The notes below the pieces were generated by a model. The model saw only the letters and a list, made by a program, of their open reading frames with translations. It was not told the DNA's origin and made no database searches. Made by a program: the position numbers and the translations under genes. Positions 20,701 through 59,529 of a stretch of 64,000 nt of DNA are shown piece by piece (within the stretch, counting starts at the first letter, position 1; every line of letters starts with the position of its first letter). This DNA is from Ilex aquifolium (Eukaryota; Streptophyta; Magnoliopsida; Aquifoliales; Aquifoliaceae): assembly GCA_951799425.1 (NCBI GenBank), contig OX637396.1, positions 35,890,701 through 35,954,700 on the forward strand, given 5' to 3'.

Positions 20701-21871
20701 CCTTTGAGCTACGTTTACTTCGCAGGATGCCGCCCAGTGTCTTCGCTGCTAACGGCAAGCCTCCACACTTTTTCATTATAGCCTGGCCAATTTCTTCCAA
20801 ATTTGGATGGGCACCAAAATTGCTTGTACACAACGCATGTTGAGCTAATAAAGATAAACAGTCATCATCGCCCAACACCTCTGGATTGTGAGCTGGGACG
20901 GAACTCATGGTTAATGCAATGCTTGCTATTCGAGTTGTAACAATAATTTTACTTCCAGGTGCTCCAACTCGAAAAGGAGCACGCAGGAGATCCCATTTTA
21001 CGTAGTCCAGATTCCAAACATCGTCTAGAACAAGGAGAAATTTTTTTCCAAAAAGTTTCTCTTTAAGACTTACTTGGGCCGTATCCAAGTTCTTGAAGTT
21101 ACGATTCTCTTTGGTCGCTGATTCATAAATTTTGCTTGTTATCAAGAGCACATCAAACTCTTCAGAAACACACACCCATGCTTTCAAATCAAAGAAATCG
21201 TCGACTTTCTCATCATTGTAGACAAGTTGAGCAAGAGTGGTCTTGCCAAGACCGCCCATACCAACTATTGGAACGACGGATGGTTCATCATTACTTGATT
21301 CATCGTTGAGCAACAATCCGAGTATTTCTTGTTTATCCTTTTCCCGACCATAAACATGGGGCTCATCCACCAAGGAAGTAGTCTCTGTTCTTGTGTTTGA
21401 CCTTACTTCGGGACTGACTCTCAAACCCAGGACATCTCTTTGTTTTGCAATATCTTCTAATCTAGCAGTGATCTCCTCAATCTTGGGGCCCAACTTGATT
21501 TTGAGCGCAATGGATCTAGGGAAACTGCTACAACAAGTAGGGAGGAAGTTCCGAACCCTGCTTGTGGTAGCTGCTTCAGCCTCCAACTTCAATTTATGGG
21601 CCAAAGCTTCTGTCGCAATCTCATCCACTAGATCATCCACATCGTAAGCCAGATCCCTCAGGTCCGCCAGCCACAGATTCACATTTTCGTCCCTTATTTG
21701 CTTAGCCTCAGCATCGTTGAGCACCGCTCTAATTGTCGATAGCAGTTTGCGCAATTTCGTCAACTGGGTAAAAATCCCCTCGCTGCGAGCAAATTTCAAC
21801 AGCTCGCTAGAGGCCAATCTGTCAAACAACACACTTAAGAACGCACCCAGAAAAACTTCAATGATAGCCAT
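17771..21871 (-). CDS. CC-NB-LRR disease resistance protein (RPP13-like protein 1 type)
   Basis: Single-exon frame of 1366 aa, an intracellular immune receptor of the CNL class. An Rx_N-type coiled coil (residues 1-130, MAIIEVFLGAFLSVLFDRLA start, with a VDDLVDE stretch near 78-84) is followed by NB-ARC: P-loop GMGGLGKTT at 204-212, kinase-2 LLVLDDVW at 279-286, RNBS-B SKIIVTTR at 307-314, GLPLA at 371-375, RNBS-D YCAIFPKDYEF near 431 and MHD at 495-497. An irregular LRR domain runs from about 570 to 1340. All the nucleotide-binding motifs are present, so it could be functional. The start ATG is at the conserved N-terminus shared with the paralogue at 59529. Family function is ATP/ADP-switched activation of defence. 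The effector recognised is unknown. It shows very high identity to the split copy at 41738-59529. Confidence 0.95.
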   Translation of the reverse strand: MAIIEVFLGAFLSVLFDRLASSELLKFARSEGIFTQLTKLRKLLSTIRAVLNDAEAKQIRDENVNLWLADLRDLAYDVDDLVDEIATEALAHKLKLEAEAATTSRVRNFLPTCCSSFPRSIALKIKLGPKIEEITARLEDIAKQRDVLGLRVSPEVRSNTRTETTSLVDEPHVYGREKDKQEILGLLLNDESSNDEPSVVPIVGMGGLGKTTLAQLVYNDEKVDDFFDLKAWVCVSEEFDVLLITSKIYESATKENRNFKNLDTAQVSLKEKLFGKKFLLVLDDVWNLDYVKWDLLRAPFRVGAPGSKIIVTTRIASIALTMSSVPAHNPEVLGDDDCLSLLAQHALCTSNFGAHPNLEEIGQAIMKKCGGLPLAAKTLGGILRSKRSSKEWKDVLNNEIWDLPEDQSGILPALRLSYHHLPSQLKPMFGYCAIFPKDYEFDKDELVLLWMAEGFLQQSERMRKCMEELGDDCFNELLSRSFFQPSSGTKSKFTMHDLLNDLSQHVTGEICFRMEDNMGNNERCNISPKARHSAFMRHRYVVYKRFKAFDHELLRLRTFLALPVYKSYKWEPFYLSNGVLVNILPKLLCLRVLSLGGYNISELPNSIGDLKHLRYLNLSGTSIKWLPESMSSLYNLQTLSLRGCHELCKLPPDIGNLVDLRHLDNADTPKLQEMPPGISKLKSLQTLPKFVVCKSGGLVLSHLNNLELLWGMLSIVGLQNVKNVQDAEAANLNRKRDLDELELQWSSEDEDSQNEELQANVLNMLRPHKGLKHLKIEFYRGLTFPSWIGDLSFSKTTQISLRGCTKCASLPPLGQLPLLKELHIQGLNAVKNVGAEFYGDGGSLETRFPSLKTLSFEDMPEWEGWCSYIGAEFVGHFRCLRQLTMSKCPKLVSVSVLRLPTLCELKIEGCNEVVLKGLTELTSLRELYIKDISGLTHLQEEFTHFLVSLEYFEVHDCAALVTLWQKGNTPQHLSHLQHLSVEGCSELVCLAEEDQLLPRNLESLQVSGCDCLERLPNGLESHTSLKELELKKCPKLVSFPEANLPPMLRSLSLEDCSSLESLPNCNSCLEELSLWDCSSLRSLPMDTLSSTLKSLQIFNCKELDSILEPIRLSIIMDEPGCFRISDWPNLERLWVWMEPFSCDLSYKKGQPFPTGSSLLTPNLRSLRIGGIPNDIYFASKFQSLTSLEKLSMSDCDNLESFPQENLPPNLTRISISNCKKLKPLSEWGLHRLSSLQYFYMHDVYPELHSLPDECWLPSTLKNLRIEDMPNLTSLSKGIHNLTSLYIRNCPNLRSLHDERTLGTLSSLYFLDINNCPNLRSLPDERTLATLLSLTITKCPLLEQRCLKDKGADWHKIADIPEVHISH

Positions 21872-33400: not shown

Positions 33401-33855
33401 AATAACCCATGTACACCCTAGTTCCTTTGCCATGTCACTTATCTCAGGGATGGAGATTAGGTCAGGATCACACCAATCAACATACCTAATATACCCACCC
33501 TTATATACCATCAGAGGCATGCACTCAAATTTTTCACTATAATGCAACTCTATGGTGAATAACGTTGAGTTCACACCTATGCAAAAAGTTAGAAAGCATC
33601 TTCAATCATACCCAGTATATCCTATACCATAGAAAAAAAAAAACACAAGACAATTGCTTTGTCTCCCACTCAGATTAAGGAATATGGTAAAAAAACAACA
33701 AAATCCGTTCGAAACAAGAGCTTGTAAAATATTAAACCAGTTCAAAACAAAACCCAACATCTTCTACACTTTTCATATCCAATAACTGTATAAACAACTA
33801 ATTTTACCACTTTCACACGTACAAATGAATTAAAAATTTCACACTTACCATACAT
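30471..33855 (-). pseudogene. MuDR-type MULE transposase, frameshifted
   Basis: Minus-strand gene with recognisable introns: a short first exon with ATG at 33855 (donor GTAAGT, intron 33577-33848), intron 31977-32061 (GTATGA...TTTAG) and intron 30807-30893 (GTGAGT...TTCAG). The order is an N-terminal plant-MULE region with an acidic Asp/Glu/Ser stretch, a MuDR DNA-binding region (FKLGMVFASTKQFKEAIKNY), the MULE DDE domain (FICIDGCFLTG and WTFMSDQQ carry the first two Asp), a SWIM zinc finger (CTCRKWDLTGIPCAH) and a CCHC knuckle (CTKCGNTSHNKRSCK). The C-terminal exon is a Pro/Ser/Thr/Gln repeat of 19 residues, four times, ending at 30471. Two lesions: a frameshift at about 32660-32675 between FND and ARNCNWAWRN, and an in-frame TAG at 30981-30983 after a QQGQ motif. 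Confidence 0.88.
30507..30737 (-). repeat. 57-bp coding tandem repeat in the transposase tail
   Basis: Four copies of a 57-bp unit (19 codons). The spliced frame gives a QPPRPTTRSSFSVT-like unit. A second frame (30437-30787) is also open and gives a Gln/His-rich unit, LNHNHQGQQLGAHSQSLPQ. Exon phase favours the Pro-rich frame. Confidence 0.8.
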
Positions 33856-41737: not shown

Positions 41738-44700
41738 TTAATTTCCACTCTCTTTAGATATACTTACACAAGGGATGTCAGCGATCTTGGGCCAATCTGC
41801 TCCTTTATCCTTCAAACACCGTTGTTCAAGAAGTGGACATTTGTAGATGGTCAGCTTTGAGAGTGTGGAGAGTATCCTTTCGTCGGGCAAGGAACGAAGA
41901 TTAGGGCAATTGTAGATTTCCAGGTCATGAAGAGAGGTGAGGTTGTGGATACCCTTAGAGAGAGAAGTGAGGTTAGGCATGCCTCCGATGGAAAGTAATG
42001 TTAGAGTAGAAGGAAGCCAACACTCATCCGGCAAGGAATGTAGCTCTGGGTATACATCATGCATGTTAAAGTATCGAAGAGAAGAGAGTCTGTGGAGGCC
42101 CCACTCTGATAGAGGCTTGATTCTTTTGCATTTTATGATAGAAATATCTGTAAGGTTGGGGGGCAAATTCTCTTGAGGAAAGGACTCAAGATTATCACAT
42201 TTATACATCCCCAAATATTCAAGGGATGTGAGGCTTTGAAACTTGCTTGCAAAATAAATGTCATTCGGAATACCCCCGATATGAAGACTTGTGAGGTTGG
42301 GAGTAATCAAACTACTTCCAGTTGGGAACAGCTGTCCCTTCTTGTAATGCAAATCACAATAAAAAGGTGGCTCCTCCATAAATACAAATAAGTTCTCCAA
42401 ATTTGGCCAATCACTGATCCTAAAACATCCTGGCTCCTCCATGTTCAGTCTAATCGGCTCTAAAATTGACTCTAATTCCTTGCAATTAAGAATTCTAAGA
42501 GACTTAAGGGTGGAGGTAAGTGTATCCATTGGCAAGGATCTCAGAGACGAGCAGTCGTAGAGCCTCAACGTCTCAAGACAAGAGTTGCAATTAGGCAGGG
42601 ACTCTAGTGAACTGCACTCTCGTAACGAAAGCCTTGTAAGCATGGGCGGAAGATTGGCCTCTGGAAAGGACACGAGCTTTGGGCACCTTTTGAATTCCAA
42701 TACTTTGAGAGAAGTATGGTTTTCCAGGCCATTTGGCAACCTCTCCAGACAATCACAGCCAGATACTTCCAAAGATTCAAGATTACGAGGTAGCATTTGA
42801 TCTTCTTCAGCCAAGCACACAAGTTCGGAACATCCCCCGACACTTAAGTGTTGCAAATGGGAAAGGTGTTGTGGTGTATTCCCCTTCTGCCACAGAGTCA
42901 CTAGTGCAGCACAGTCATGCACTTCAAAATTTTCAAGTGACACCAAGAAATGAGTGAATTCTTCCCGCAAATGAGTCAGTCCCGAAATATCCTTAATATA
43001 CAATTTCCTTAGAGAGGTTAATTCAGTGAGACCTTTTAGAACCACCTCGTTGCAACCTTCTATCTTTAATTCCCAAAGAGTGGGAAGCATTAGGACTGAG
43101 ACATTTACCAATTTAGGACACTTGGACATGGTAAGCTGACGAAGGCAAGGGAAATGTCCTACAAATTCAGCACCAATATAACTACACCACTCTTTCCATT
43201 CTGGCATATCCTCAAAGCACAGAGTCTCGAGCGATGGAAATCGATTCTCCAAAGCGCTACCATCCCCGTAGAACTCAGCACCCACGTTCTTTACTGCATT
43301 CAATCCCTGAATATGTAGTTCTTTCAGCAGAGGTAGCTGACCAAGTGGTGGCAAAGACGCACATTTTGTACATCCTCTTAGACTAATCTGCGTTGTTTTT
43401 GAGAACGACAGATCCCCAATCCAACTGGAGAATGTTAAGCCCCTGTAAAACTCAATTTTGAGATGTTTCAATCCTTTATCCGGCCGTAGCATGTTGAGTA
43501 CGTTGGCTTGGAGCTCTTCATTTTGAGAATCTTTATCCTCACTACTCCATAGCAATTCCAACTCATCCAAATCCCGTTTACAATTTAAATTGGCTGCCTC
43601 TGCATCCCGCACATTCTTAACATTTTGCAACCCTACAATGGAAAGCATCCCCCGTAGAAGCTCTAGGTTGTTCAAATGGCTAAGTCCCAATCCACCACTT
43701 TTACACACAACAAACTTTGGCAAAGTTTGCAAACTTTTCAACTTACTAATCCCGGGGGGCATCTCTTGTAATTTTGGAGTATCAGCATTGTCAAGATGGC
43801 GGAGGTTAACTAAATTTCCAATGTCTGGGGGCAACTTACAAAGCTCATGACAACCACGTAACGATAATGTCTGCAAATTGTAGAGACTACTCACTGATTC
43901 AGACAACCATTTAATTGATGTCTCTGATAAATTCAAGTACCGAAGATGTTTCAAATCACCAATCGAGTTGGGTAACTCGCTTATATCATACCCACCCAAA
44001 GATAAGACTCTTAAGCATATTAATTTTGGTAGTATGTTAACTAAAACACCATTGCTTAAATAGAAGGTTTGCCATGTATATGACTTATAAACTGGCAGTG
44101 CTAAGAATGTCCGCAAGCTCAGAAGTTCACGATCAAATGCCTTGAATCTTTTGTACAATTCATTCTTATGGCGCATGAATGCCGAGTGGCGAGCCTTCAG
44201 AGAAATCATACACCGTTCATTACTGTCCATATTATCTTCCATCCTAAAGCATATTTCTCCCATAACATGTTGAGCTAAATCATTCAAAAGGTCATGCATC
44301 GTGAATTTTGATTTCGTGCCACTTGAAGGTTGGAAGAATGACCTTGATAACAACTCATTGAAGCAATCATTACCTAACTCTTCCATGCATTTCCTCATTC
44401 TTTCTGATTGTTGCAGAAAACCTTCTGCCATCCATAACAAGACTAACTCGTCCTTGTCAAACTCGTAGTCCTTTGGAAATATAGCGCAGTATCCAAACAT
44501 TGGCTTCAATTGAGAAGGTAGGTGATGATAGCTTAATCTCAGAGCTGGAAGAATGCCGCTCTGATCCTCGGGTAAATCCCAGATTTCATTGTTAAGTACA
44601 TCTTTCCACTCCTTTGAGCTACGTTTACTGCGCAGGATGCCGCCCAGTGTCTTCGCTGCTAACGGCAAGCCTCCACACTTTTTCATTATAGCCTGGCCAA

Positions 44701-44836
44701 TTTCTTCCAAATTTGGATGGGCACCAAAATTGCTTGTACACAACGCATGTTGAGCTAATAAAGATAAACAGTCATCATCGCCCAACACCTCTGGATTGTG
44801 AGCTGGGACGGAACTCATGGTTAATGCAATGCTTGC
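41738..44836 (-). pseudogene. Second CNL gene, 3' part (rest of NB-ARC plus LRR)
   Basis: From the insertion site the frame continues through residues equal to 318 onward of the intact CNL: GLPLA, YCAIFPKDYEF, MHD and the whole LRR region, ending at a stop at 41738 (1026 codons counted from the first ATG at 44818). No stop or frameshift lies inside. Together with 58577-59529 the reading frame is continuous across the insertion site: 322 codons precede the codon at 44818. So the gene was open, about 1348 aa, when the Tat element split it. The C-terminal tail differs from the first copy (ends SKESGN). It lacks P-loop and kinase-2, so alone it cannot bind nucleotide in the normal way. Confidence 0.95.
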
Positions 44837-45546
44837 TGATGGCGTAAACCTTCGGATACGAGCTAAGGAACCAGATTAATTGGCGTGAGCAGTTTGCATG
44901 GGGACTAATATGGCATCTGAGCTACAAGGCTCGTGAAGTGGGGAATGACAGCTCTAATTAGTCGTGTGTAATGTGTGAAATACAATAGAAATATAGTGGT
45001 TCACCGGCTGATGAGCTCGGCTAGTCCACTCTCTAATGGAGGCTCTTGCTCATGTCTCTTTATTGATGAATTGAAGGTGTTACAGGCGAATACTCAGGGA
45101 ACTAGGGTTTCAGAAAGTCTCCCCCGGCGATGGGGGCTGTCTCTTCCTTTTTATAGCCTCATACTTAACTCTAATACGGGACTATCCTACATTGAAGGGA
45201 TCGTGCCCTATCTTTATCCACAATTCCGGAGTTACCTAAATTCCTTATGGCTGGCTTCAAAAGGAGAGATCTTTGCCTCCTCCTGTGGGATCCTCCTTAG
45301 TTTTAGGAGGAGATCATGGTTAAATACGGGTTTTCTGCCTCGGATTGGATTCTACCTCCTTAATAAGGGTATCCAAGTCGTCTTGTTGTTCCCTTAGCAT
45401 TTCTTCTCTCGCGCCTTCGACTAGGAGCTCTTAGTGCTGACTGGATGAGCTCTGCTCATGGCTAGGGGAGCTCAGCTTCTTTCGCCTGAGCTCCCGAGCT
45501 GAGCTCACTTACTGAGCACGTGCCAGTTTTATTCTGGGTATCATCA
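44837..45546 (-). repeat. 3' LTR of the Tat element
   Basis: On the minus strand it starts TGATGATACC and ends TTTACGCCATCA. It differs from the 5' LTR at two positions as read by eye (45052 and 45494). It includes TATAAAAA (45148-45155) and AATAAA (45059-45064) on the minus strand. A 140-codon plus-strand frame here and in the other LTR is not a gene. Confidence 0.97.
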
Positions 45547-45565
45547 GTTGCCCCCCAGCCCTTGC
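45547..45565 (-). other. Polypurine tract
   Basis: Minus strand GGGCTGGGGGGCAAC directly before the 3' LTR, the usual place for plus-strand priming. One T and two C interrupt the purines. Confidence 0.65.
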
Positions 45566-46207
45566 CTTGAGTTAGCTCAGGCAGGGGATGACTTGTACAA
45601 GACGAGTTAGACGTGCGTGTGGCTGGCACGTGGCTGTAGGATTTCTGACGGTTTTATAGCCATCATGACTTTCCTCGATTCCCGCGCACGTCTCAGCCCA
45701 TGTCTCCCAGGCTTTTGAATGCTTAAAACGGCTATCTAAACTGCTTCTTCGCACTGTTCATCTTCTTTACTGCCCTTCGTCTCCGCTCTCTCTGCGATTC
45801 CAGTCCTCCTTGCCTTGGTTTTTCTATTTTCTTGCCTGAAATCGAATTTCCGGACCTCGTTTCGAAGACTTGCGACGCCTCCTTTTCCGATTTCGTTCCC
45901 AGTTCCTGTTTGCCACTATCCCTGGGTTAGGTACGTCCTTTGCCCTTATTTCTTCCCTTTTTTTTTTTTTTTTGCTCTGGATCCCTCGAGTTCGAGGTGG
46001 TTATTGCATTTTTGGGCTTTTCGGTTCTTTTATTTTTGGAATCGTGACCATTGTCTAGCCCCACTTCACCACTTCGTGGATTGGGGTTCTGTAGTTCATA
46101 TCCTTGCTGTTGGGAGCCACTGTGTTGATCCCCGGGTCATTAGAGAGTGCCTGACTAATCCCCCTTTGCTCTATCGTTCTTTCCATCTTCCTTTTTCTCT
46201 CCCTATC

Positions 46208-48837
46208 ATGTCTGTTTCTTCTGAAGCCACTCGCTCCTCTGTTTCACTTCTAGGATCTAGGTCAGCCGGAGAAGATACGGATTTAGGGGAAGTTGGTGAT
46301 GAGATTGATAATTTTCCGGGTGTAGAGGCTGTAGAGGCTGAGGTCTACGCCGAGGAGCCTCCCTCCACCTCATCTTCCCTGCCCCCCAGACCTGACAAAG
46401 GCAAAGCTAAGATAAGTGGAGTCGGGGTGGAGGAGAAAACCTCGTATCTAGGGCTTGCCTTTAGGCATGCCGAATCTGTGGGCTGCAGTAAAGAGGCCCC
46501 TAGGCTAATGAAGTCTTATAAAGTTCGGTATGGTTTTCCCCCTGGGGTCGAACCCTGGTGCCCAGATCGATCCGTTTTTTATGTAGAAAAAGTTCATAAC
46601 AGAGTCTGCTTCTTTCTTGCTGCTTTTGACAACGGCCTTCGCTTTCCCTTGCATCCCTTCATCAAGGCTGTTCTGCAACATTTTCATGTGTGCCCTTCCC
46701 AGATCTCCCCCAACTTCTATGGCGTCATGGTTGGTCTGTTAGTCCTGTTTAGGAAGCATAAACTTGGGATTCCTAGCATTCCTTTGTTCTTAGAGCTCTT
46801 CAATGTAAAACCGACCTCCGGAGGCTTCTTGTATGCCTCCAAGCGTGCCAGTGTTAGGCAGCTCATCTCTGACATTCCGACCTCCCATAAACACTGGAAG
46901 GAACATTTCTTCTTTGTCGGGGGCACCAATTGGGAGTACAACCCTGCTGATAAGACAGACACACTCGGTATCCCTACGGCCTGGGCTGAACCAGATAATT
47001 TACGTGAGTCTTTACTTGAGTTCGAGCTCTGATCTGGAACCTGCCGGCCTCTTATCTTTTTCTTATTTGCATACTTTCTTCCTCTTAGGTGAACGCTACG
47101 AGCTCAGCCCTGAGGACAAAAAGTTGCTAGCAAAGTTGGAGAAGATCAAGCCAGAGAAGTACGCCGACTTGATTGAGTCAAGGAACCTGGTACAGCTGGG
47201 TCTGAGTCTTCCTGTGGCGACTTTGGCGATCCCCTTGTCTGTTTTAGGGGCTGACGAAGGTGATTTCAACGCCATTCTTTTTCCTTTCTTCATTATCTTT
47301 CCTTCCTTTCTCTTTTTCTTTACATTTTCCTACTTCTTCCAGATCTTCCAGGTCCTTCTACCATGAAGGTTGATCCAGAAGAGCTTCAGGCCAAAATTGC
47401 AGAGCTGATGGTGGGTGGCAGGTCTAGGAAACGCAAAGCTCGGGTAGGCTCTGGGAGCGGCCCAAACATTCGAGCTAAGATCCCCCGGCTGGAAGCATCT
47501 TCTCCCCCCTCTGCAGCTGAAGGACAGGTTCCAAGCAATGCTCCGCCCTCCTCCTCTGGAACTCCACAAGCTGCAACCACCTTTTCTTCCCCTCCAGTGG
47601 CCCCTTCTAAGTTGGCGTCTGCTCAGGAGAGGGATCAGGCTTCCCCTTCTTCTTCTGAGGTCAAGGAGGCTTTGGAATTGGTTCCCGACCTTCAACCCGG
47701 GAAGTTCGAATACAGTGCTTCTGGGAAGGTGACTGAAAAAGAGAGAAAGTCTGAGGAGGAAGATGAGGACTCCTTTTTTGACAATATAGACCTTGCTGCT
47801 GGAGCTCTTTCCTCTATCTTTTCTGAATCTGATGTCCTGAAGGCCGCTTCCATGCCCCTGGAGGAATCCATCTCTTTGGCCCTTCAGGGAGCTGCTACTG
47901 TGAGTGTTAACCCCCTGTCTCTCTTTGCTTGTTTGTATTTCGTGGTCTGACATTATTTGCTGTACTTTCCTTATATTCTCAGGCTGCCCTTCATACGAAA
48001 GGTCTGCTGCACCGAGTTCGCTCTCAAGAGAGCTCTTTCCAGGTCTTAAAGAAATACAAGACCAAGGTTTCAGAATTGTCTCTTGAGAATGAAGACCTCA
48101 GAGCTCAGGTGGAGAGCCTTAAAGTGCAGATGGAGGGTCTCAACGAACAGATGGTGAAGCAAGCTTCCGATCTCAAACACACACTGACAGTCAAGGCCAG
48201 AGCTGAGGAAGGGGAAAAGAAGACTCGGGATGAGCTGAAGGCGGTTAAGGAAGACCTGCAGGCTAAGGTTGAGGCGTGGTCCAAGGCTAACCAGGAGGCC
48301 TTTGACGCTAAGAGGGAGCTCATCCAGGTTAATCAAGATTATTTTGCCCTCAGTGAGGCTAACGGCAAACTCTGTGAGGAGCTCGAGGAGCAGAAATATT
48401 TGGTTCAAGAGAGAGACAAAGAGTTTGCCGAGCTTAAGGATGAGGCCACCACTTCATGGGCTACTGGATGGCTTGCTTTTAGGCGTAAGGCTACCAAAGC
48501 ATATCCAGACCTTGATTTCAATCTCCCCATCCCCACTGAGGAGGAAATGGAAGAATCTGGCACTGACAATGAGGGGGATATCTCAGACTCCCCAGCTGCT
48601 GCCTTAAGTCAAGACACACCCGCCCCTGGGACCTCAGAAGCTATTATCGCGTTCCCTGAGCCTTCAACAACGATTCCTGAGCTTTCTGCTGCAGCTCCTG
48701 CTGTTCCTGTTTCTGCATCCTTTTCAGCTGTCGTGGTGTCTGAAGCCCTTGTTCAAGGTGAGCCCTCAGCAACAGAAGCAAGGGACTCCTCTACTGAGCT
48801 GCGAGATCCTTCAATCCCTCTTCTTCCAGAATCCTAG
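46208..48837 (+). CDS. Antisense gene 1 of the Tat element (putative gypsy-type transposon domain)
   Basis: Four exons opposite to gag-pol: 46208-47003, 47089-47259, 47343-47899, 47983-48837, all GT-AG with matching phases, giving about 792 aa. Start chosen at ATG 46208 (MSVSSEATRSS); the frame is open to 45815 but upstream looks like leader. Exon 1 carries LRFPLHPFIKAVLQHFHVCP, ISPNFYGVMVGLLVLFRK and HWKEHFFFVGG, the pattern of the plant 'putative gypsy type transposon' domain (Transposase_28). Exon 3 is basic and Pro/Ser-rich with KKRK-like RSRKRKAR. Exon 4 has a long coiled coil (about 48040-48440) and a Pro/Ala/Ser-rich acidic tail. No known catalytic motif. Likely an accessory protein of the element. 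Its function is not established. Confidence 0.75.
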
Positions 48838-49998
48838 GTCTTTTTAGTTGTAATTTCTCTGTAAAGAATTTTTCGTGATGTAGTCTTTGACTTCATTTAT
48901 TGCTCTTTTGCTGGCTTAGTATATATATACATATCTTTCAATTTCAGCATATATGTATTCTTGGATTTTGATTCGACTTCGACTCGAACCGCAACGGTGC
49001 ACTTATTTGCCTGGCTTTGCATGCACTCAACTTTGTATACTCCCTTTGCCCCCTTTTGCTTTGAGGGGTGCTGTGCACTTCTTGAAGCAAAATTACTAGG
49101 TTTGAAGAGTACGGGGGACTTGGTGTTATGTTCGACTGCTTTTCCCGAGCCTTTTAGGCTCAGTAGTTGGTACCCTAGGGGTCCACTCCTTATTCTTCTT
49201 CGTCCTAAGCTGCTCAACTCTATATTCTGAACTGGCGTGCTCCTTCAGAGTTGCATAGCTCGTGCTTGTGAGCTTATAAATTCTTGCTGAGCTAAGACGG
49301 TTCTTTTTTCGAACTTGAGAGCTCTGAGCTCTTTGTCTTTTCCGTATGAACTGAAGAGCGCTTTCTGAGCTATTTGGCTCTGTTGTCTGATCTTAAAGTT
49401 TATTTCTGAGCTTCGTGGTTCTTTTGTCTGAATTTACGGGTTCTGTCTGAGCTTCATGATTCTTTAAACGAACCCTTCTCTAGATCAGATAATAAATTTC
49501 GTTGCTCCATTTCTCTAAGAGTAGAGGACCTTCTTCTACGTTTCACCTCTCTTTTCCCCACATCTTGCTTTGCGGAGTGCTTTAGGCCTTCCTTAAGCGA
49601 GGCTTTGAGCTTTCACACCTCCAAGATTTGGTATACAAGTGCTCTGTTTTTTACTGGGCTGAGCTCAAATATGGAGGGTATATTGCTTGGTGGGGTCAGA
49701 ATTTTCGTTGGTCGTTTTGAGTGCAAATAGGAGGGGTAGTATCTGGTTTCTTTTCCCGCGTTTTTCTCTCAACCGCTTCCCATAACCGCCACGTCTTTCC
49801 CCTTTCCATATCCGCAACCACTTTCCATAACCGTAGCCACTTTCCATAACCGCTGCTACCTTTATTAATTAAGAAACTGAACAGGCCACTTGATTCCCTC
49901 TTTCTTGGCTCTTAGTTTCCTGAAAAGCTCTCAAGTGCATGACCTATTCTTGACTTTCTTCTTGATTTCTTGCATCTTTTTCCTTACCAGCATTTTCG
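48838..49998. other. Spacer between the two antisense genes
   Basis: Imperfect repeats of 'gagctt-gtggttct-ttgtctga' at about 49260-49470 and 'ccatatccgcaaccactttc' at 49800-49850. Possibly the promoter of gene 2 and 3' end of gene 1. No frame of interest. Confidence 0.45.
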
Positions 49999-51087
49999 AT
50001 GGCCGCATCCACTTCTTCTTTGTTCCAGGAACGATCCTCCTTTGGGATCGAATGGGAGTGGCATTGTCGCTATTTGTCCCCTTCATTACTTGAATCTTCT
50101 GATTTGACGGACATCAAGAAACGGTTTTTCCCTGATCTTGACTTGCCTATGCGAGTTTCTTCCTCCGACGAGCCTTGTAACTACCTTCCCCGAGGGGAAG
50201 TCTGTTTCTTTGAAGGTGCTATGGACATGGGACTTCGCCTTCCCATTCATCCGGCCATTGGGCGAGTTCTTGCCTATTATGGCCTGTGCCCTTCTCGCCT
50301 TTCTCCACGAGGATGGGGTGCTATGGTAAGCTTCTTCTTGTTCTGCCGCCTTCATGCTCTTGGCAGGTTCCCCTTTGTCTCTGAGTTTCTATACTTCTTT
50401 GAGATTGAGGAAGATAATGCCCCCTGCTTCAGTTTCTTCCGTTGGAGGGATTTCAATTTACGCCCTCTGGTTCTAGATCTTCCCTCCAACCCTGGAGGGT
50501 GGTCTGAGCGTTTCTTCTTTGCTTCTGGAGAGGCTTGGAGGTCTCCTGAGGATCGCTGTCACAAAGCCAGGATTCCTCGGTCCTGGAAGAGCTTCTCTCG
50601 TATTGGTAAGCTCGAGCATAGCTCTTTTGAGTACTTTCCTTTTAAAAATATGCTCTGATTATGTCCTTGCTGTGCAGATCCACCTGACCTGGATTTACCA
50701 GGGATGGTGAATATCAACGAGTTGTTGCTTGTGGAGTCTAAGACTTATTCCGAGCTGATGACGAGCGCAAACCTCTATTTGCTTGGGGCTGAGGCTACTG
50801 AGTTTGAGTTTTCCACTATTCCTTACTCTTCCTGGACCTCTTTCTCTGATTCTGATGAGGATGGGGATTCTGACAAGGACGGAAACACCGTCACGAGTTC
50901 GAGGAAGCGTAAGAGGGACGATTCCCCTTCTCCTGACTCTCTGTCCACCATCTTCCTTACCTCTGTTGGTCAGAAGCTCCTTAATTCGCTTCAAGAGGCT
51001 GAGCAGGAAAGGGATGAGCTGAAAAAAGAGAATGCTAGCCTGAAGGGAGAGGTTGCTGAGCTGAAATCTGAACTTAAGAAAGACTAG
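49999..51087 (+). CDS. Antisense gene 2 of the Tat element (related domain)
   Basis: Two exons, 49999-50605 and 50678-51087 (donor GTAAGC, acceptor TGTGCAG), phases match, 338 aa. The N-terminal domain has LRLPIHPAIGRVLAYYGLCP, LSPRGWGAMVSFFLFCRLHA and GGWSERFFFASGEAW, lining up with the exon 1 domain of antisense gene 1. After the splice, DPPDLDLPGM parallels DLPGPSTM after the corresponding intron of gene 1. Then an acidic stretch (SDSDEDGDSDKDG), a basic SRKRKRDD nuclear-localisation-like motif and a short C-terminal coiled coil. So this is a shorter, diverged paralogue, in tandem with gene 1. It is not a fragment, since start, intron and stop are all intact. Confidence 0.75.
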
Positions 51088-51499
51088 AATCTTTGTTTCC
51101 TTGTATCGTTCTTTCTTTTCTTAAGCGATATCAGACTATGACTCTTTTTGTATTTTTCTGAATATTTGCACTGTCGGATATTTCGAATGCCAGACTTTTC
51201 ATTCATCTCGAATTCTGTTAGGTTATTTCAGCTTACTCTTCTCGTTCGAAACACGAACGTAGATGGAGAACAGAAGATCATGTCTGCTCTGACCTTACTT
51301 CTCATCTGACCTCATAGGTGTTCTCAGTTGTTCTGGACCTTTCGAGATCTTTGGGTGTGTAGGCAGTGCACAAGGGTATCTGGTCCTGGGGGGAGGACCA
51401 TTGGTGTCTCCAAGAAGCGTTCAGCCTTGAATTTGACTGTTGGTGTCTCCAAGAAGCGTTCAACCTTGAATTTTGTACGAGCTGAAGAGCTCGTCTTTT
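51088..51499. other. 3' region of antisense gene 2
   Basis: Contains a 34-bp direct duplication ('ttggtgtctccaagaagcgt' at about 51391 and 51443). No gene. Confidence 0.5.
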
Positions 51500-52256
51500 G
51501 TTTATAAGCTTTTGAGGCTTATCCTGTAGTTATGAGCTGAGGAGCCCATCTTAAATTTATAAGCTTTGAAGCTTATCGGGTTTTTATGAGCTGAAGAGCT
51601 CATCTTAAATTTATAAGCTTTGAAGCTTATCGGGTTTTTATGAGCCGAAGAGCTCATCTTTGATTTATAAGCTTTGAAGCTTATCGGGTTTTTATGAGCT
51701 GAAGAGCTCATCTTTGATTTATAAGCTTTGAAGCTTATCGTTTGTTTATGAGCTGAAGAGCTCATCTTGCATTTATAAGCTTTGAAGCTTATCGTTTGTT
51801 TATGAGCTGAAGAGCTCATCTTGCATTTATAAGCTTTGAAGCTTATCGTTTGTTTATGAGCTGAAGAGCTCATCTTGCATTTATAAGCTTTGAAGCTTAT
51901 CGTTTGTTTATGAGCTGAAGAGCTCATCTTGCATTTATAAGCTTTGAAGCTTATCGTTTGTTTATGAGCTGAAGAGCTCATCTTGCATTTATAAGCTTTG
52001 AAGCTTATCGTTTGTTTATGAGCTGAAGAGCTCATCTTGCATTTATAAGCTTTGAAGCTTATCGTTTGTTTATGAGCTGAAGAGCTCATCTTGCATTTAT
52101 AAGCTTTGAAGCTTATCGTTTGTTTATGAGCTGAAGAGCTCATCTTGCATTTATAAGCTTTGAAGCTTATCGTTTGTTTATGAGCTGAAGAGCTCATCTT
52201 GCATTTATAAGCTTTGAAGCTCATCGTTTGTTTATGAGCTGAAGAGCTCATCTTGC
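51500..52256. repeat. 54-bp satellite array inside the Tat element
   Basis: Fourteen head-to-tail copies of a 54-bp unit just downstream of pol. Each unit holds two near-perfect hairpins: ATGAGCT-gaag-AGCTCAT and ATAAGCTT-tg-AAGCTTAT. The ten copies nearest pol are almost identical, while the four on the 51.5-kb side are diverged. 54 is a multiple of three and no stop falls in one frame, so an 18-residue repeat peptide is open on the minus strand (51502-52332), but it looks incidental. Confidence 0.95.
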
Positions 52257-52332
52257 TACTTTGGAGGCCATTGGAGGGTGAATAAAAGGCTTGCTCTTTC
52301 TTATTTAAAAGTAGTCCTATTACAAGTAACAC

Positions 52333-55300
52333 TTACTGAAAAAACTTCTTAAGGTGCTCGGCATTCCACGAGTGATGTAGAACCTTTCCTTCCTCTGTTT
52401 GCAACTCGTAATTCCCTGGTCTGATTATCTTTGACACGATATAGGGCCCTTCCCAATTGGGTCCCAATTTCCCATGCGTGGGATCCTTTCTCGCAAGCAG
52501 AAGCCTCCTAAGCACCAAGTCTCCAACCTTGAAACTTCTGTGTCTTACCCTCCTGTCATAGTACCTTGCCGTTTTCCTTTGGTAAGTACGGACGCGGTGC
52601 AGAGCTCTGTCCCTCTTTTCATCCAAGAGATCGAGGTTTAGCAAGAGAGACTCATCATTGTGCTCGGGATCTGCAAACTCCACCCTTGGTGATTGGAGCC
52701 CTATCTCCACTGGGGCCACTGCCTCGGTCCCAAAGGCCAAAGCAAAGGGGGTTTCCTGAGTCGCCGATCTGGCGGTGGTCCTGTAGGCCCACAATACCTC
52801 CGGAATGTACTCCACCCATTTGCCTTTCAGGTTTTCTAGCTTGGTCTTCAAAGCTGACTTTATGGTTCTTATTGTGACCTCCGCCTGCCCATTAGACTGG
52901 GGATGGGCAGGAGCTGAGAAATAGTTCTTGATTCCGAGCTCGGCACAAAAACTTTTGAACTTTGAATTATCAAACTGCTTTCCATTGTCAGATACGAACG
53001 CTCTGGGAACTCCAAACCTGCAAACTATCGACTTCCAAACGAAGTTTTGAACTTTTTGCTCTGTGATCGTTGCCAAAGGTTCGACCTCTGCCCATTTAGT
53101 AAAGTAATCCACTCCTACGACGGCAAACTTGCACTGCCCCGCACCGGTGGGTAGGGGTCCCAGAATGTCTAGCCCCCACTGCTGAAAAGGCCATGGGCTT
53201 ACCACCGAGGTTAGGAACTCGGGAGGACAGTGGGACATATTAGCATGCTCTTGGCAAGTTTTGCATTTTCTTACTAAGTCGGTGGCGCTTTTGAACATGG
53301 TGGGCCAATAATATCCTTGCCTCAGTACTTTTCCTGCCAAGGCCCGAGCTCCTATGTGGTTGCCACATATCCCCTCATGTACTTCTCTGAGTATGTAGTT
53401 AGCATCTTCGTCTCCTACGCACTTAAGGAGGGGCATTGAAAATCCATGCTTGTACAGTTTCCCTTGCATCAGGGAAAATCTGGCTGACCTGGCCCTTAGC
53501 TTGGATGCCTCCTTGGCACTATTTGGCAAAGTTCCATTCTGAAGGTACTCTACGATGGGGTCCATCCAGCTCGGCTGAGCTTCAATTGACAGAATTTCCT
53601 CTTCTTCAATGCTTACCGAGGGCTTTGGAAGGTGCTCTACTGGAATTAGCCTATCCAAATCCTCTTGTGAGGCAGTCGCTAACCTTGCCAGAGCATCTGC
53701 TCGTGAGTTCTCCACTCTAGGCACGTGTCTGACCTTAACCTGCACAAACTGTTTCATTAGTTCTCGTACCTTTTTGAGGTACAGGACCATCTTCTCGCCT
53801 CTTGCCTCGTAACACTCTTCTATCTGCTTCACCACCAGTTGAGAATCACTGCAGATCTCCAGCTGCTCTGCTTCCATAGAATAGGCAAGATTAAGCCCAG
53901 CGATGACGGCTTCATATTCTGCCTCATTATTTGAAGCTTTGAACCCAAATCTGAGGGCATATTCGACGTCTATTCCTTCTGGGGAGGTCAGGATCATTCC
54001 TGCACCGCTTCCCTGAGCATTGGCGGCTCCATCCACTGAAAGCTTCCATATGGGAAGGTCCGGTACTAAATCCGTGGTTTCCATAGGCGCTGCTGCTGTG
54101 AATTCTGCAATAAAATCTGCCAAAATTTGCCCTTTGATGGCAGTTCTTGGCTTGTACCTGATATCAAACTCGCTGAGCTCTACGGCCCATTTAACCAACC
54201 TCCCTGAGGACTCCGGCTTGTGTAGTACTTGCTTCATTGGCTGATCTGTTGGAACCTCAACAGTATGAGCCTGGAAATAAGGTCTAAGTCTCCTAGCTGT
54301 TGTAACCAGAGCTAGAACGAGTTTTTCCATCCTTGGATATCTCTCCTCTGCCCCCCTCAGAGCTCTGCTACAGTAGTAGACTGGTTGCTGAGCTCTGTCT
54401 CGCTCCCTAACTAGCGCTGCACTTGTTGAAAAATCTGAAACTGCTAGGTAGAGGGTGAGGATTTCCCCTTCTAGAGGGCTCACCAGAACAGGGGGAGAGC
54501 TCATATATCTCTTTAGGTCTTCGAATGCTTCTTCACACTTGGAATCCCAGTGGAATGCCTTCTTCAAGATTTGAAAAAATGGCTGGCATTTATCGCTAGA
54601 CCTAGACACAAAACGGCTAAGTGCAGCTATCCTGCCTGTCAAACGTTGCACCTCTTTTGTGTTGGATGGTGACTTCATTTCCACCATTGCTTTAACCTTT
54701 TCTGGATTGGCCTCAATCCCTCTGCTGCTGACTATAAAGCCCAGAAATTTTCCAGCCGAGACCCCGAATGCGCACTTCGCAGGGTTTAGCTTCATTTTGT
54801 ACTCCTGTAGAATTCGGAATGACTCAGCTAAGTGCTCGATGTGGAGCTCTGCTTTCAGCGACTTCACTAGCATATCATCAATGTAAACCTCCATGGATGC
54901 TCCTATTTGCCTCTGGAACATTTTATTTACTAACCGCTGGTAAGTGGCTCCGGCGTTCTTCAATCCGAAGGGCATGACCTGATAACAATATGTTCCCTGT
55001 TCAGTCACAAAGGAGGTCTTCTCCTGATCGCTGGGATCCATCCCGATCTGGTTGTAGCCTGAAAAAGCGTCCATGAAACTGAGGAGCTCGTGCCCTGCAG
55101 TGGCGTCCACTATTAGGTCAATCCGAGGTAAGGGAAAACTGTCTTTGGGGCATGCTCGGTTGAGATCAGTGAAGTCGATGCACAATCGCCACTTCCCATT
55201 GGTTTTCTTTACGAGAACTACATTTGCTAACCAAGTGGGGTAATGAACCTCCCTGATAGCCTTGGCATGGAGGAGTTTGCTGACCTCCTCATTGATTGCT

Positions 55301-56223
55301 TTTTGCCTTTCATAAGCAAAGCTCCTCCTCTTCTGTTTGATGGGTTTGCAAGTTGGGTTTACGCATAACTTGTGGGTAATAACCGAGGGATCAATTCCTT
55401 CCATGTCTTCTTGCTTCCAAGCGAACACTCCTATATTCTCTTTTAGGAACTGGATGAGGAGTCTTTTGAGCTCAGCGTTTAGTTTGGATCCCACATAAAC
55501 AAGGTGTTCTGATTTCTCATCAAGCTGAACTGGTTCCAGCTCTTCCGATGGCATTGGTCTTGTCTCCATTTCATCTCTCATGTCGAGCTCATCCAGTTGG
55601 ATGTTCTCGACCTCCTTCCTTTTTACAGAAGCCAAGTAGCACTCCCGTGCTACGCGCTGGTCTCCTCGGACCACTCCGATTCCATTTTCTGTAGGGAACT
55701 TCACGACTAAATGATAGGCAGATGGGATTGCCTTTATAGAATTTAGGGATGGCCTTCCAAGCAAGATGTTGTACGCCGATGGTGCATCGACTACTAGGAA
55801 TTTGACAGTGGTAGTGGCTTGGCAAGGTGGATCCCCCAGGGTGAGCACGAGCTGGATTGAACCCAGGGGGAGCACCCTTTCCCCGGAGAATCCCAGCAAG
55901 TGAGTGCTTACTGGCTCGAGTTTTTGTCTTCCTATGTCCATCCTGTCAAACGCAGGTGCGAAAATAATATCTGCCGAGCTCCCGTTATCAATTAGAACCC
56001 GATGAACTGTTCTATTTGCCACCACAGCTCGTACCACCAGTGGATCATCATGGGGGTATTGGCACCCTTCTAAATCAGCATCTGAAAAAGTGATAGCTGT
56101 ATCCAAGCGTGGAGCCTTGGATACAGCGTGCACTTCGAGAGTTTCTTCGGCTCTGATCCGCCGGAGGTGCGCCTTCCTAGCTGAACTTGACTCTCCACCT
56201 CCTGCGAAACCTCCAGATATCAC
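52333..56223 (-). CDS. Tat element Pol (protease, RT, RNase H x2, integrase)
   Basis: About 1296 aa counted from a GTG at 56223. The frame is open and in phase back to the gag stop, so Pol is probably made as a Gag-Pol fusion. In order: aspartic protease with LIDNGSSADI (residues 77-86); reverse transcriptase with YIDD at 447-450; a gypsy-type RNase H (about 580-710) with degenerate catalytic motif (VSDFSTSAA); a second, archaeal-type RNase H (726-850) with SVDG, AEYEA, SDSQ and RADALA; integrase zinc finger H949, H956, C987, C990; integrase core D1019, D1079, E1115 (GLDI, SDNG, GQAEV). Ends at 52333. No internal stop. The dual RNase H is a Tat-lineage trait. Confidence 0.95.
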   Translation of the reverse strand: MISGGFAGGGESSSARKAHLRRIRAEETLEVHAVSKAPRLDTAITFSDADLEGCQYPHDDPLVVRAVVANRTVHRVLIDNGSSADIIFAPAFDRMDIGRQKLEPVSTHLLGFSGERVLPLGSIQLVLTLGDPPCQATTTVKFLVVDAPSAYNILLGRPSLNSIKAIPSAYHLVVKFPTENGIGVVRGDQRVARECYLASVKRKEVENIQLDELDMRDEMETRPMPSEELEPVQLDEKSEHLVYVGSKLNAELKRLLIQFLKENIGVFAWKQEDMEGIDPSVITHKLCVNPTCKPIKQKRRSFAYERQKAINEEVSKLLHAKAIREVHYPTWLANVVLVKKTNGKWRLCIDFTDLNRACPKDSFPLPRIDLIVDATAGHELLSFMDAFSGYNQIGMDPSDQEKTSFVTEQGTYCYQVMPFGLKNAGATYQRLVNKMFQRQIGASMEVYIDDMLVKSLKAELHIEHLAESFRILQEYKMKLNPAKCAFGVSAGKFLGFIVSSRGIEANPEKVKAMVEMKSPSNTKEVQRLTGRIAALSRFVSRSSDKCQPFFQILKKAFHWDSKCEEAFEDLKRYMSSPPVLVSPLEGEILTLYLAVSDFSTSAALVRERDRAQQPVYYCSRALRGAEERYPRMEKLVLALVTTARRLRPYFQAHTVEVPTDQPMKQVLHKPESSGRLVKWAVELSEFDIRYKPRTAIKGQILADFIAEFTAAAPMETTDLVPDLPIWKLSVDGAANAQGSGAGMILTSPEGIDVEYALRFGFKASNNEAEYEAVIAGLNLAYSMEAEQLEICSDSQLVVKQIEECYEARGEKMVLYLKKVRELMKQFVQVKVRHVPRVENSRADALARLATASQEDLDRLIPVEHLPKPSVSIEEEEILSIEAQPSWMDPIVEYLQNGTLPNSAKEASKLRARSARFSLMQGKLYKHGFSMPLLKCVGDEDANYILREVHEGICGNHIGARALAGKVLRQGYYWPTMFKSATDLVRKCKTCQEHANMSHCPPEFLTSVVSPWPFQQWGLDILGPLPTGAGQCKFAVVGVDYFTKWAEVEPLATITEQKVQNFVWKSIVCRFGVPRAFVSDNGKQFDNSKFKSFCAELGIKNYFSAPAHPQSNGQAEVTIRTIKSALKTKLENLKGKWVEYIPEVLWAYRTTARSATQETPFALAFGTEAVAPVEIGLQSPRVEFADPEHNDESLLLNLDLLDEKRDRALHRVRTYQRKTARYYDRRVRHRSFKVGDLVLRRLLLARKDPTHGKLGPNWEGPYIVSKIIRPGNYELQTEEGKVLHHSWNAEHLKKFFQ

Positions 56224-56265
56224 TCTGATTTCTCCTAGAGGCTGCTGGTGTGGTGCAGGTGCCTG

Positions 56266-57804
56266 CTATCGGGGTGGCGGAGGCGGAAGAGCTCGGTTCA
56301 GGTTATCATTGGCTATAAAACGACGCAGCTGACCTCGCTGGATCAAGAACTCGATTTCCTTCTTCAATTGAATACAGTCATCAGTGTGGTGTCCATGATC
56401 TCGATGATAATCACAGTACTTCGTGGGGTTCCTCTTTGCCGGGTCTGCCTTCATCCTAGGTGGCCATTTTAAAAACTTCTCGTTCTGGACCTCATACAGT
56501 ACTTGTGACACAGCAGCGGTGAGTGGGGTAAACCGCTGAGGCCCATACCTGGGTTGTAGTTCAGGTTGCATGGGACCCAGCCGATCTCTGACATTTCCTC
56601 TCCTCTTTGGCGAGCGGTCTCTGTCCCTCCTTGGGGACCTCTCTCGTCCTTTTTCCTTCCTAGGGCTTCTGTCCCTTCTCTTTTCTTCTTTTTCCTTTTC
56701 CTTTCGTGAAGATGTACCGACCACCTTAGAAAGGAGTGCCTCTTCACCATTTATATATTTCTCTGCCTTGGCTAACACCTCAGCCATACTTGCCTGAGGG
56801 TTTTTTGATATGGAGAACATCAAATCCTTTGATTGCACTCCCAACCCTGCAATGAAAGCAGTTATGGCGAATTTTTCATCCGGGACGTCTACTTTCAATG
56901 TCTCCGAGTTAAATCTTTGGACATAAGTCCTCAGGTTTTCCTGGGGACCCTGCTTCACATTCAGCAGGTGGTAGCTCGGCTTTCTGTGTATCTGGGCTCC
57001 TATGAAATGAGAGACAAAAGCAATGGAGAGTTCTTTAAAGGATGAGATCGAGGCTGGCGGGAGCCTATGAAACCAGTTTAAGGCGGAGCCTTTCAGCGTG
57101 ATAGCAAAAGCTCTGCATCGTACAGGATCCTGGTACCCATGTAGCTCCATCTGGTTCTTGTAAGTGTTGAGATGATCCACGGGATCTTTCGATCCGTCAA
57201 AGACCTCCATTTGAGGCATCCTGAATTTTGGTGGGAGAGGGAAGTGTAGCACCCCCGTGGTGAATGGGGACTCGGTTTGCTGGACCAAAACATCCATTGT
57301 AACCGGGGCCTTACTTTTTACGGCCTCCTTCATATGGCTGAGCTCTTGCTGGAAATCTTTGAAGCGTTGCTCCCAGTGCTGCTCTCTCCTGTCTTGCGGA
57401 TAAGGGAAGAAATCACCTCTCTCACCCCTGTCGTTCCGACTTTGCACTTCGTCGTTAGGGCCATTACCAGGGGGTACGTAGGGGACATATCCCCTGGCCT
57501 GGCTGCCTTCCCCCCCCTCGCTGACCTCTCTATGGGGGTCCCAGTATCGAGGTTCCATATGAGGGGGGTTATTCTGGCCTTCATGGGCCGGTGGTGCCTC
57601 TTGTGGGCGTTGTACGAGCTTTGACAGCTCTTCATTTTCCTTTAGCAAACGTTGGTTGACGAGACGCAGGGCCTCCAACTCGTTATTAATGAGGGAATTC
57701 GCCTCCTGGATGTTCCCGGGTTGCCTGCCGTGGGCAGTTTCCGGCTGATCTTGCATTCGAGGTAGGTTTGTTTGGCTTCTGCTCATATTTCGAGTTATTA
57801 CCAT
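56266..57804 (-). CDS. Tat element Gag
   Basis: 512 aa from ATG at 57804, about 60 bases after the primer-binding site. The N-terminal third is low complexity with a short coiled coil (LVNQRLLKENEELSKLV). A retrotransposon gag core follows (MPQMEVFDGSKDPVDHLNTY, ALNWFHRLPPASI, YVQRFNSE), then a very basic Lys/Arg/Glu/Ser/Asp tract (about residues 365-405) and a C-terminal CDYHRDHGHHTDDC zinc-knuckle-like motif characteristic of Tat gag. It forms the virus-like particle and binds RNA. It ends with TAG at 56266-56268, but the same frame stays open beyond into pol. Confidence 0.93.
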   Translation of the reverse strand: MVITRNMSRSQTNLPRMQDQPETAHGRQPGNIQEANSLINNELEALRLVNQRLLKENEELSKLVQRPQEAPPAHEGQNNPPHMEPRYWDPHREVSEGGEGSQARGYVPYVPPGNGPNDEVQSRNDRGERGDFFPYPQDRREQHWEQRFKDFQQELSHMKEAVKSKAPVTMDVLVQQTESPFTTGVLHFPLPPKFRMPQMEVFDGSKDPVDHLNTYKNQMELHGYQDPVRCRAFAITLKGSALNWFHRLPPASISSFKELSIAFVSHFIGAQIHRKPSYHLLNVKQGPQENLRTYVQRFNSETLKVDVPDEKFAITAFIAGLGVQSKDLMFSISKNPQASMAEVLAKAEKYINGEEALLSKVVGTSSRKEKEKEEKRRDRSPRKEKGRERSPRRDRDRSPKRRGNVRDRLGPMQPELQPRYGPQRFTPLTAAVSQVLYEVQNEKFLKWPPRMKADPAKRNPTKYCDYHRDHGHHTDDCIQLKKEIEFLIQRGQLRRFIANDNLNRALPPPPPR

Positions 57805-57841
57805 CAGTCACTGAGGAATCAGCTTACTTGTAACAGGAACA

Positions 57842-57864
57842 GTCGTTCCCACAGACGGCGCCAA
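57842..57864 (-). other. Primer-binding site
   Basis: Minus strand TGGCGCCGTCTGTGGG starts two to three bases inside the 5' LTR. It has the TGG start expected for pairing to a tRNA 3' CCA end. I do not assign the tRNA. Confidence 0.8.
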
Positions 57865-57866
57865 AC

Positions 57867-58576
57867 TGATGGCGTAAACCTTCGGATACGAGCTAAGGAA
57901 CCAGATTAATTGGCGTGAGCAGTTTGCATGGGGACTAATATGGCATCTGAGCTACAAGGCTCGTGAAGTGGGGAATGACAGCTCTAATTAGTCGTGTGTA
58001 ATGTGTGAAATACAATAGAAATATAGTGGTTCACCGGCTGATGAGCTCGGCTAGTCCACTCTCTAATGGAGGCTCTTGCTCCTGTCTCTTTATTGATGAA
58101 TTGAAGGTGTTACAGGCGAATACTCAGGGAACTAGGGTTTCAGAAAGTCTCCCCCGGCGATGGGGGCTGTCTCTTCCTTTTTATAGCCTCATACTTAACT
58201 CTAATACGGGACTATCCTACATTGAAGGGATCGTGCCCTATCTTTATCCACAATTCCGGAGTTACCTAAATTCCTTATGGCTGGCTTCAAAAGGAGAGAT
58301 CTTTGCCTCCTCCTGTGGGATCCTCCTTAGTTTTAGGAGGAGATCATGGTTAAATACGGGTTTTCTGCCTCGGATTGGATTCTACCTCCTTAATAAGGGT
58401 ATCCAAGTCGTCTTGTTGTTCCCTTAGCATTTCTTCTCTCGCGCCTTCGACTAGGAGCTCTTAGTGCTGACTGGATGAGCTCTGCTCATGGCTAGGGGAG
58501 CTCAGCTTCTTTCGCCTGAGCTCTCGAGCTGAGCTCACTTACTGAGCACGTGCCAGTTTTATTCTGGGTATCATCA
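57867..58576 (-). repeat. 5' LTR of the Tat element
   Basis: 710 bp, same ends as the 3' LTR. The two differences lie at 58082 and 58524. Confidence 0.97.
58178..58185 (-). promoter_or_regulatory. LTR TATA box
   Basis: TATAAAAA on the minus strand inside the 5' LTR, followed 84 bases on by AATAAA (58089-58094), the expected U3-R order for the element promoter and polyadenylation signal. Confidence 0.6.
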
Positions 58577-59529
58577 CTTGCTATTCGAGTTGTAACAATA
58601 ATTTTACTTCCAGGTGCTCCAACTCGAAAAGGAGCACGCAGGAGATCCCATTTTACGTAGTCCAGATTCCAAACATCGTCTAGAACAAGGAGAAATTTTT
58701 TTCCAGAAAGTTTCTCTTTAAGACTTACTTGCGCCGTATCCAAGTCCTTGAAGTCACAACTTCCTTTGGTCGCTGATCCATAAATTTTGTCTGTAATCAC
58801 GAGCACATCAAACTCTTCAGAAACACACACCCATGCTTTCAGATCAAAGAAATCCTCGACTTTCTCATCATTGTAGACAAGTTGAGCAAGAGTGGTCTTG
58901 CCAAGACCGCCCATACCAACTATTGGAATGACGGATGGTTCATCATTACTTGATTCACCGTTGAGCAACAATCCAAGTATTTCTTGTTTATCCTTTTCCC
59001 GACCATAAACATGGGGCTCATCCACCAAGGAAGTAGTCATTCTCTCTGTTCCTGTGTTTGGCCTTACTTCGGAACTGACCCTCAAACCCAGGACATCTGT
59101 TTGTTTTGCAATATCTTCTAATCTAGTAGTGATCTCCTCAATCTTGGGGCCCAACTTGATTTTGAGCGCAATGGATCTAGGGAAACTGCTACAACAAGTA
59201 GGGAGGAAGTTCCGAACCCTGCTTGTGGAAGCCTCAGGCTCCGAATTCACTTCATGTGCCAAAGCTTCAGTCTCAATGTCGTCCACCAGATCATCCACAT
59301 CGTAAGCCAGATCCCTCAGTTCCGCCAGCCACAGTTTCACAATTTCGTCCCTTATTTGCTTAGCCTCAGCATCGTTGAGCACCGCTCTAATTGTGAATAG
59401 CAGTTTGCGCAATTTCGTCAACTGGGTAAGAATCCCCTCGCTGCGAGCAAATTTCAACAGCTCGCTAGAGGCCAATCTGTCAAACAGCACACTTAAGAAC
59501 GCACCCAGAAAAACTTCAATGATAGCCAT
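58577..59529 (-). pseudogene. Second CNL gene, 5' part (coiled coil and first half of NB-ARC)
   Basis: ATG at 59529 and 317 intact codons: coiled coil, P-loop GMGGLGKTT, kinase-2 LLVLDDVW and RNBS-B SKIIVTTR, cut after the IAS that follows TTR. Reading on into the 5' LTR adds 27 foreign residues before a stop at 58492, giving a 345-aa truncated CC-NB protein. Relative to the intact paralogue it has a two-residue insertion (ERM) and a one-residue deletion in the linker. With 41738-44836 it formed one open gene. Confidence 0.95.

Follow-up and report, generated by a model that had tools for sequence, protein, structure and literature searches.

A young Tat/Retand-type retrotransposon divides an otherwise open CC-NB-LRR gene of Ilex aquifolium

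Here we analysed a window of 64,000 nt, the whole stretch under study, from Ilex aquifolium (assembly GCA_951799425.1, contig OX637396.1, positions 35,890,701 to 35,954,700 of the forward strand). A complete long terminal repeat (LTR) retrotransposon of Tat/Retand type stands within the coding sequence of a gene of the nucleotide-binding leucine-rich repeat (NLR) class. The element has integrated with a target-site duplication, its LTRs are nearly identical, both halves of the gene are open, and a whole paralogue, P0001, lies in the same window. It is highly probable that this was a recent integration into an exon of an open coiled-coil (CC) NB-LRR gene (CNL) that belongs to a large tandem cluster, leaving a fresh pseudogene in which the insertion is the only visible lesion. 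Positions follow the window's numbering unless prefixed C6, which is the 42.8-Mb contig that holds the window (C6:35890701-35954700) in a genome of 800 Mb and 103 contigs.

The insertion site and the divided gene

The original prediction placed a CTTGC duplication at the two ends of the element and a paralogue reading straight through the same site, and both were found (Table 1). P0001 carries a single CTTGC, and the 61 bases that result from joining the flanks occur in it letter for letter. Although a 5-base match would arise by chance with a probability of 1/1024, chance is not a serious explanation because the duplication is accompanied by LTRs that differ at 2 of 710 positions and by an uninterrupted homologous site.

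Translation of the segments on either side, 58582-59529 (316 codons) and 41738-44833 (1031 codons and the stop), revealed no internal stop, and re-translation found no frameshift. With the duplication counted once and the codon that spans it included, the joined gene has 1348 codons, in agreement with the 322 and 1026 codons originally predicted. Aligned with P0001, the halves differ from it in length by whole codons, with gaps of 25 and 6 codons on the two sides of the alignment in the 3′ half and of 2 and 2 codons in the 5′ half.

Pfam searches of the 5′ half returned Rx_N (1.2e-21) and the first part of NB-ARC (4.8e-28, profile positions 2-136 of 248). The 3′ half contains the remainder of NB-ARC (4.9e-12, profile positions 149-246), a winged helix (WH_DRP, 9.5e-28) and LRR_R13L1-DRL21 (4.2e-53). 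P0001 has the domain order Rx_N, NB-ARC, winged helix and LRR, and all four are present in the broken copy, divided over its halves. The cut thus falls between NB-ARC profile positions 136 and 149, after an IIVTTR stretch. We take this stretch to be RNBS-B and the next motif past the cut to be GLPL, which agrees with the predicted placement of the insertion between RNBS-B and the following NB-ARC motif. By domain content the broken gene and P0001 are of the CNL type, with a putative role in resistance. The closest solved structure to P0001 is RPP13-like protein 4 (6j5t, E 3.4e-68), and it is also related to Sr35 and NRC proteins.

Table 1 Features of the divided gene, the element and related loci.
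Feature	Position	Strand	Evidence or remark
5′ half of broken CNL: start codon to insertion, Rx_N and first NB-ARC part	58577..59529	-	Open frame, Pfam
3′ half of broken CNL: rest of NB-ARC, winged helix, LRRs, stop	41738..44836	-	Open frame, Pfam
345-aa open reading frame (ORF) remaining on 5′ side: CC, partial NB, LTR-read tail	58492..59529	-	ORF list, translation
1026-aa ORF remaining on 3′ side: partial NB-ARC, winged helix, LRR; ATG 19 bases inside flank	41738..44818	-	
Target-site duplication copy CTTGC	44832..44836	.	
Target-site duplication copy CTTGC	58577..58581	.	
Uninterrupted paralogue P0001, 1366 aa; homologous empty site 20922-20926	17771..21871	-	Translation, Pfam
Complete Tat/Retand-type LTR retrotransposon, 13,740 bp, gene orientation	44837..58576	-	
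5′ LTR, 710 bp	57867..58576	-	2 differences from 3′ LTR
3′ LTR, 710 bp; TATAA at LTR position 392, AATAAA at 483	44837..45546	-	
gag ORF, 512 aa	56266..57804	-	Retrotrans_gag 2e-15
pol ORF, 1296 aa: reverse transcriptase, RNase H, RVT_3, integrase	52333..56223	-	Pfam; YIDD motif present
Array of 14.4 tandem copies of a 54-bp unit, immediately following pol	51479..52256	.	
Antisense ORF, 219 aa, TRP28 (PF04195)	49999..50658	+	5.5e-10
Antisense ORF, 405 aa, second TRP28	45815..47032	+	3.5e-09
L022, second split cluster member (L049 and L050)	G000:C6:35693400-35704200	-	Copia insertion

The retrotransposon and the age of its insertion

On its own (minus) strand the element starts with TGATGAT and ends with CCATCA, so that the LTRs have TG...CA ends in addition to the 5-bp target duplication. 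Its pol ORF follows the Gypsy order of reverse transcriptase, RNase H and integrase (RVT_1 338-498, RT_RNaseH 590-686, RVT_3 730-848 at 6.6e-21, rve 1012-1108). We take as a hallmark of Tat a further RNase H of archaeal type, placed after the first and before integrase, and RVT_3 here fits. No Chromo match was found in the pol ORF by Pfam at E 0.001. Neither the gag nor the pol ORF has a Pfam match to a protease, and the motif D[ST]G[AS] is absent from the pol ORF; some Retand clusters lack a protease as well (Table 1 of PMC11963269).

By domain and layout the element matches Tat/Retand, and the predicted Tat type is borne out by the target duplication, the LTRs, the two RNase H domains and the antisense TRP28 ORFs. 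The Retand lineage of a recent survey (Vicient 2025, PMC11963269) likewise combines tandem arrays and antisense TRP28 ORFs with a long stretch from pol to the 3′ LTR, and 97% of its clusters carry an antisense TRP28 ORF there. The LTRs and the internal region of 12,320 bp fall inside the survey's ranges of 315-1,194 bp and 7,380-12,869 bp, whereas the distance of 6,786 bp from pol to the 3′ LTR is outside its 2,933-6,566 bp (PMC11963269). The element has two TRP28 ORFs, which share 35% identity across 133 residues, and the text of the survey has no mention of two per element for the terms searched (PMC11963269). The 54-bp array is mostly open on the minus strand as a 276-aa ORF; a DUF2345 match of this ORF was discarded, in our judgement, as an artefact of the repeats.

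The element has relatives in this genome, with which it forms a multi-copy family. In an LTR search in which 40 of 3,419 candidates were scored, 17 LTR pairs spanned 13,330-13,740 bp, the element described here included. Both TRP28 stretches recur in the genome at 99-100% identity, and for 34 of the 40 best matches of one stretch the other lies about 3.5 kb away. Since these matches share the spacing, the double-TRP28 layout is a trait of the family in this genome.

The insertion is young, as the LTRs differ at 2 of 710 positions (0.28%; Poisson 95% range 0.03-1.0%). If 6.5e-9 to 1.5e-8 per site per year is taken as the rate, its age is centrally estimated at about 0.09-0.22 million years, with extremes of about 0.01 and 0.8 million years. 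The synonymous divergence (Ks) between the broken gene and P0001, 0.050-0.059, is about 18-21 times the LTR divergence. The gene would therefore have been uninterrupted for most of its separate history, although gene conversion makes this comparison rough.

Nonsynonymous (Ka) and synonymous divergence from P0001 were also compared along the gene. The 5′ half has a Ka of 0.045 and a Ks of 0.059, and the 3′ half a Ka of 0.054 and a Ks of 0.050. Ka/Ks is 0.17 in the 190 codons past the site, where there are only 5 differences, and 1.20 in the LRR part. This pattern would be expected for a gene under coding constraint until lately.

Mosaic history and the surrounding cluster

When the genome was searched with the P0001 protein, 34 of 1,237 first-look candidates were scored and 50 matches were listed. 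Among the matches listed, at least 13 cluster members of ≥82% identity lie on C6 between 35.54 and 36.13 Mb, and all of these are on the minus strand. Nine of the 13 are listed without stops, a count that covers stops and not frameshifts. The broken four are L012 (one TGA), L015 (one TAG), L022 (split, with stops) and the gene studied here.

We compared the broken gene with 13 copies in 150-bp blocks, leaving out the member at C6:35854898-35858962. Its nearest relative shifts from block to block among L011, L012, L014, L016, L022, P0001 and others. Taken as a whole, the 5′ half resembles L022 (96.7%) more than P0001 (94.5%). The 3′ half shows the opposite preference, with 94.5% to P0001, over 96% of its length, against 92.5% to L022, over 80%. 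The two halves could on this account be separate loci wrongly joined, or the element could have been misplaced by misassembly, as the changes of nearest relative and the different affinities of the halves would allow. However, the duplication is exact at both ends, the window contains no N within its 42.8-Mb contig, and the block changes are spread over the whole gene rather than confined to the element. In the immediate flanks, P0001 is the nearest of the 13 copies on both sides, with 1 difference in 130 bp and 0 in 206 bp; the 11 other full copies have 5-22 and 5-42 differences, respectively, and L022 has 8 in 130, then 9 in 95 and 5 in 114 around its own insertion. A nearest relative shared by both flanks links the halves and argues against a false join, to which we give hardly any credence as far as the assembly allows it to be checked.

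Integration into a single gene thus stands as our reading, with a qualification to the empty site. The homologous site in P0001 is as originally predicted, and P0001 serves well as a reference for the empty site; given the mosaic make-up of the broken gene, it is not simply the sister copy. A tract nearly identical to P0001 spans the insertion (58706-44275), and no position differs over 336 bp at the site, which suggests that gene conversion preceded the insertion or else that constraint is strong. A search of the same assembly with 1,471 bp of upstream flank found no element-free alternative haplotype among the 40 of 228 candidates that were scored, the best match other than the locus itself being 90%.

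The genome also reveals what the original prediction did not contain, a second member of the cluster split by a different LTR element. The element that interrupts L022 is of Copia type, with a Copia gag domain and RVT_2. Its two LTRs are identical, its target duplication is GTTGG, and it lies about 30 codons downstream of the site homologous to the Tat insertion. Two cluster members are thus each broken by a young LTR element; the two elements are unrelated, and their sites fall within about 90 bp of each other in homologous sequence. We make no claim of an insertion hot spot, as a spacing of about 90 bp is unremarkable when about 4 kb of coding sequence has taken two insertions (about 1 in 20, a post hoc estimate).

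Other remains lie in the window. Between the two NLR genes are those of a Mutator-like transposase (30981-33574), with SWIM, MULE and DBD_Tnp_Mut domains in three separate ORFs. There are also two short NLR fragments: 24193-24408 matches N-terminal residues 1-72 at 61% identity, and 12356-12487 matches C-terminal residues 1317-1360 at 73% identity.

Fate of the gene and its precedents

On integrating, the element copied 5 bp of the target and parted the P-loop portion of NB-ARC from the ARC, winged-helix and LRR portion. A transcript from the native promoter would enter the 5′ LTR, which has the same orientation, and the frame would stop after 27 codons read wholly from the LTR, giving the 345-aa ORF. 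The LTR polyadenylation signal may also terminate this transcript. A transcript starting in the 3′ LTR would encode at most the 1026-aa fragment, lacking both the CC domain and the P-loop. From this arrangement we infer that the full-length receptor can no longer be made. Most likely the full-length protein is lost, and at most CC-NB and ARC-LRR fragments would remain. An outcome of this kind was measured for Crr1a of Brassica rapa (PMC3559844), and at Pish of rice resistance was measured to be lost after an LTR element inserted (PMC3017791).

The gene may instead have been a dead or silent pseudogene already, with a neutral insertion. L012 and L015 are each broken without any insertion, and the other split copy, L022, has three in-frame stops besides (one in its 5′ half and two in its 3′ half). 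The Tat-split gene has none: all 1348 codons are open, and the paralogue's Pfam domains are present across its halves. This argument has a limit, as silencing through loss of a promoter cannot be seen in the sequence. We consider prior death unlikely, though it is the most credible of the alternatives weighed here.

Death by insertion remains the reading we prefer, and several points weigh against it. Ka/Ks is 0.85 in the NB part before the site, which is not strongly purifying. The P0001-like tract and the mosaic structure point to gene conversion, so that the divergence from P0001 cannot be read cleanly as time. The original prediction also held that the insertion alone killed an otherwise open CNL gene. 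The open frame stands, and the insertion as sole visible lesion is well supported by sequence, whereas the killing, that is, the loss of the product, is something we infer.

The split gene might also still act, with LTR signals giving two transcripts whose CC-NB and ARC-LRR fragments are partly active alone, together or with intact neighbours. Both ORFs are open and share the orientation of the LTRs. The ATG of the 3′ ORF (44818) lies 19 bases past the 3′ LTR and about 337 bases downstream of its TATAA, and the three intervening ATGs open ORFs of only 6, 3 and 7 codons. Fragments of the potato receptor Rx are said to complement each other in trans, a report that our literature search did not find. 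In Brassica rapa Crr1a, rapid amplification of cDNA ends (RACE) measured NLR transcripts that end and begin in exonic LTR sequence (PMC3559844). Against this, the cut here is inside the NB fold and not between domains, and the insertion alleles of Crr1a and Pish are associated with susceptibility (PMC3559844, PMC3017791). Residual activity is therefore very improbable. Slightly less probable again is a more specific version, in which the LTRs would play the parts of terminator and promoter, so that a single receptor becomes two expressed modules, CC-NB and ARC-LRR, which modulate the roughly dozen intact neighbours in its cluster.

An inactivating insertion of this sort is ordinary in kind, with close precedents, and is unusual for its cleanness. 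Susceptible alleles of Crr1a also have an LTR retrotransposon in NLR exons, a target-site duplication (with identical LTRs) and a predicted truncated receptor, and their resistance is lost (PMC3559844). Crr1a differs in being a Toll/interleukin-1 receptor (TIR)-type NLR with a Copia element and a solo LTR, whose alleles were compared and resistance tested (PMC3559844); here a Tat/Gypsy element lies in a CNL and the insertion is seen against a paralogue only. In Musa balbisiana, an LTR element interrupts the coding sequence of the clustered NLR RGA08F-1, and its cluster mate RGA08S-2, with 95% coding identity, is element-free, as is P0001 (PMC3017797). Unlike here, that element is the small Copia-like RE5, and two haplotypes were compared (PMC3017797). 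In rice, Tos17 insertions into exons of the NLR gene Pish cause loss of function and abolish resistance, the mutants having hardly any detectable Pish transcript or none (PMC3017791). Those insertions were induced by tissue culture and comprise 46 independent alleles, and the Pish cluster is a Tos17 insertion hot spot (PMC3017791). Sr22b of Triticum monococcum likewise has a 13.8-kb Gypsy-like retrotransposon within a CNL gene, but that insertion is intronic and the gene still works, whereas the site here is coding (PMC8882774).

The two unrelated young LTR insertions about 90 bp apart invite a test of insertion preference in NLR clusters, as with Tos17 at Pish. The divided gene itself very cleanly illustrates birth and death among clustered resistance genes, with one very young lesion, the rest of the gene open and a homologous empty site alongside. 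If the insertion is polymorphic, PCR for the presence or absence of this one receptor could be tied to phenotype by breeders and population geneticists.

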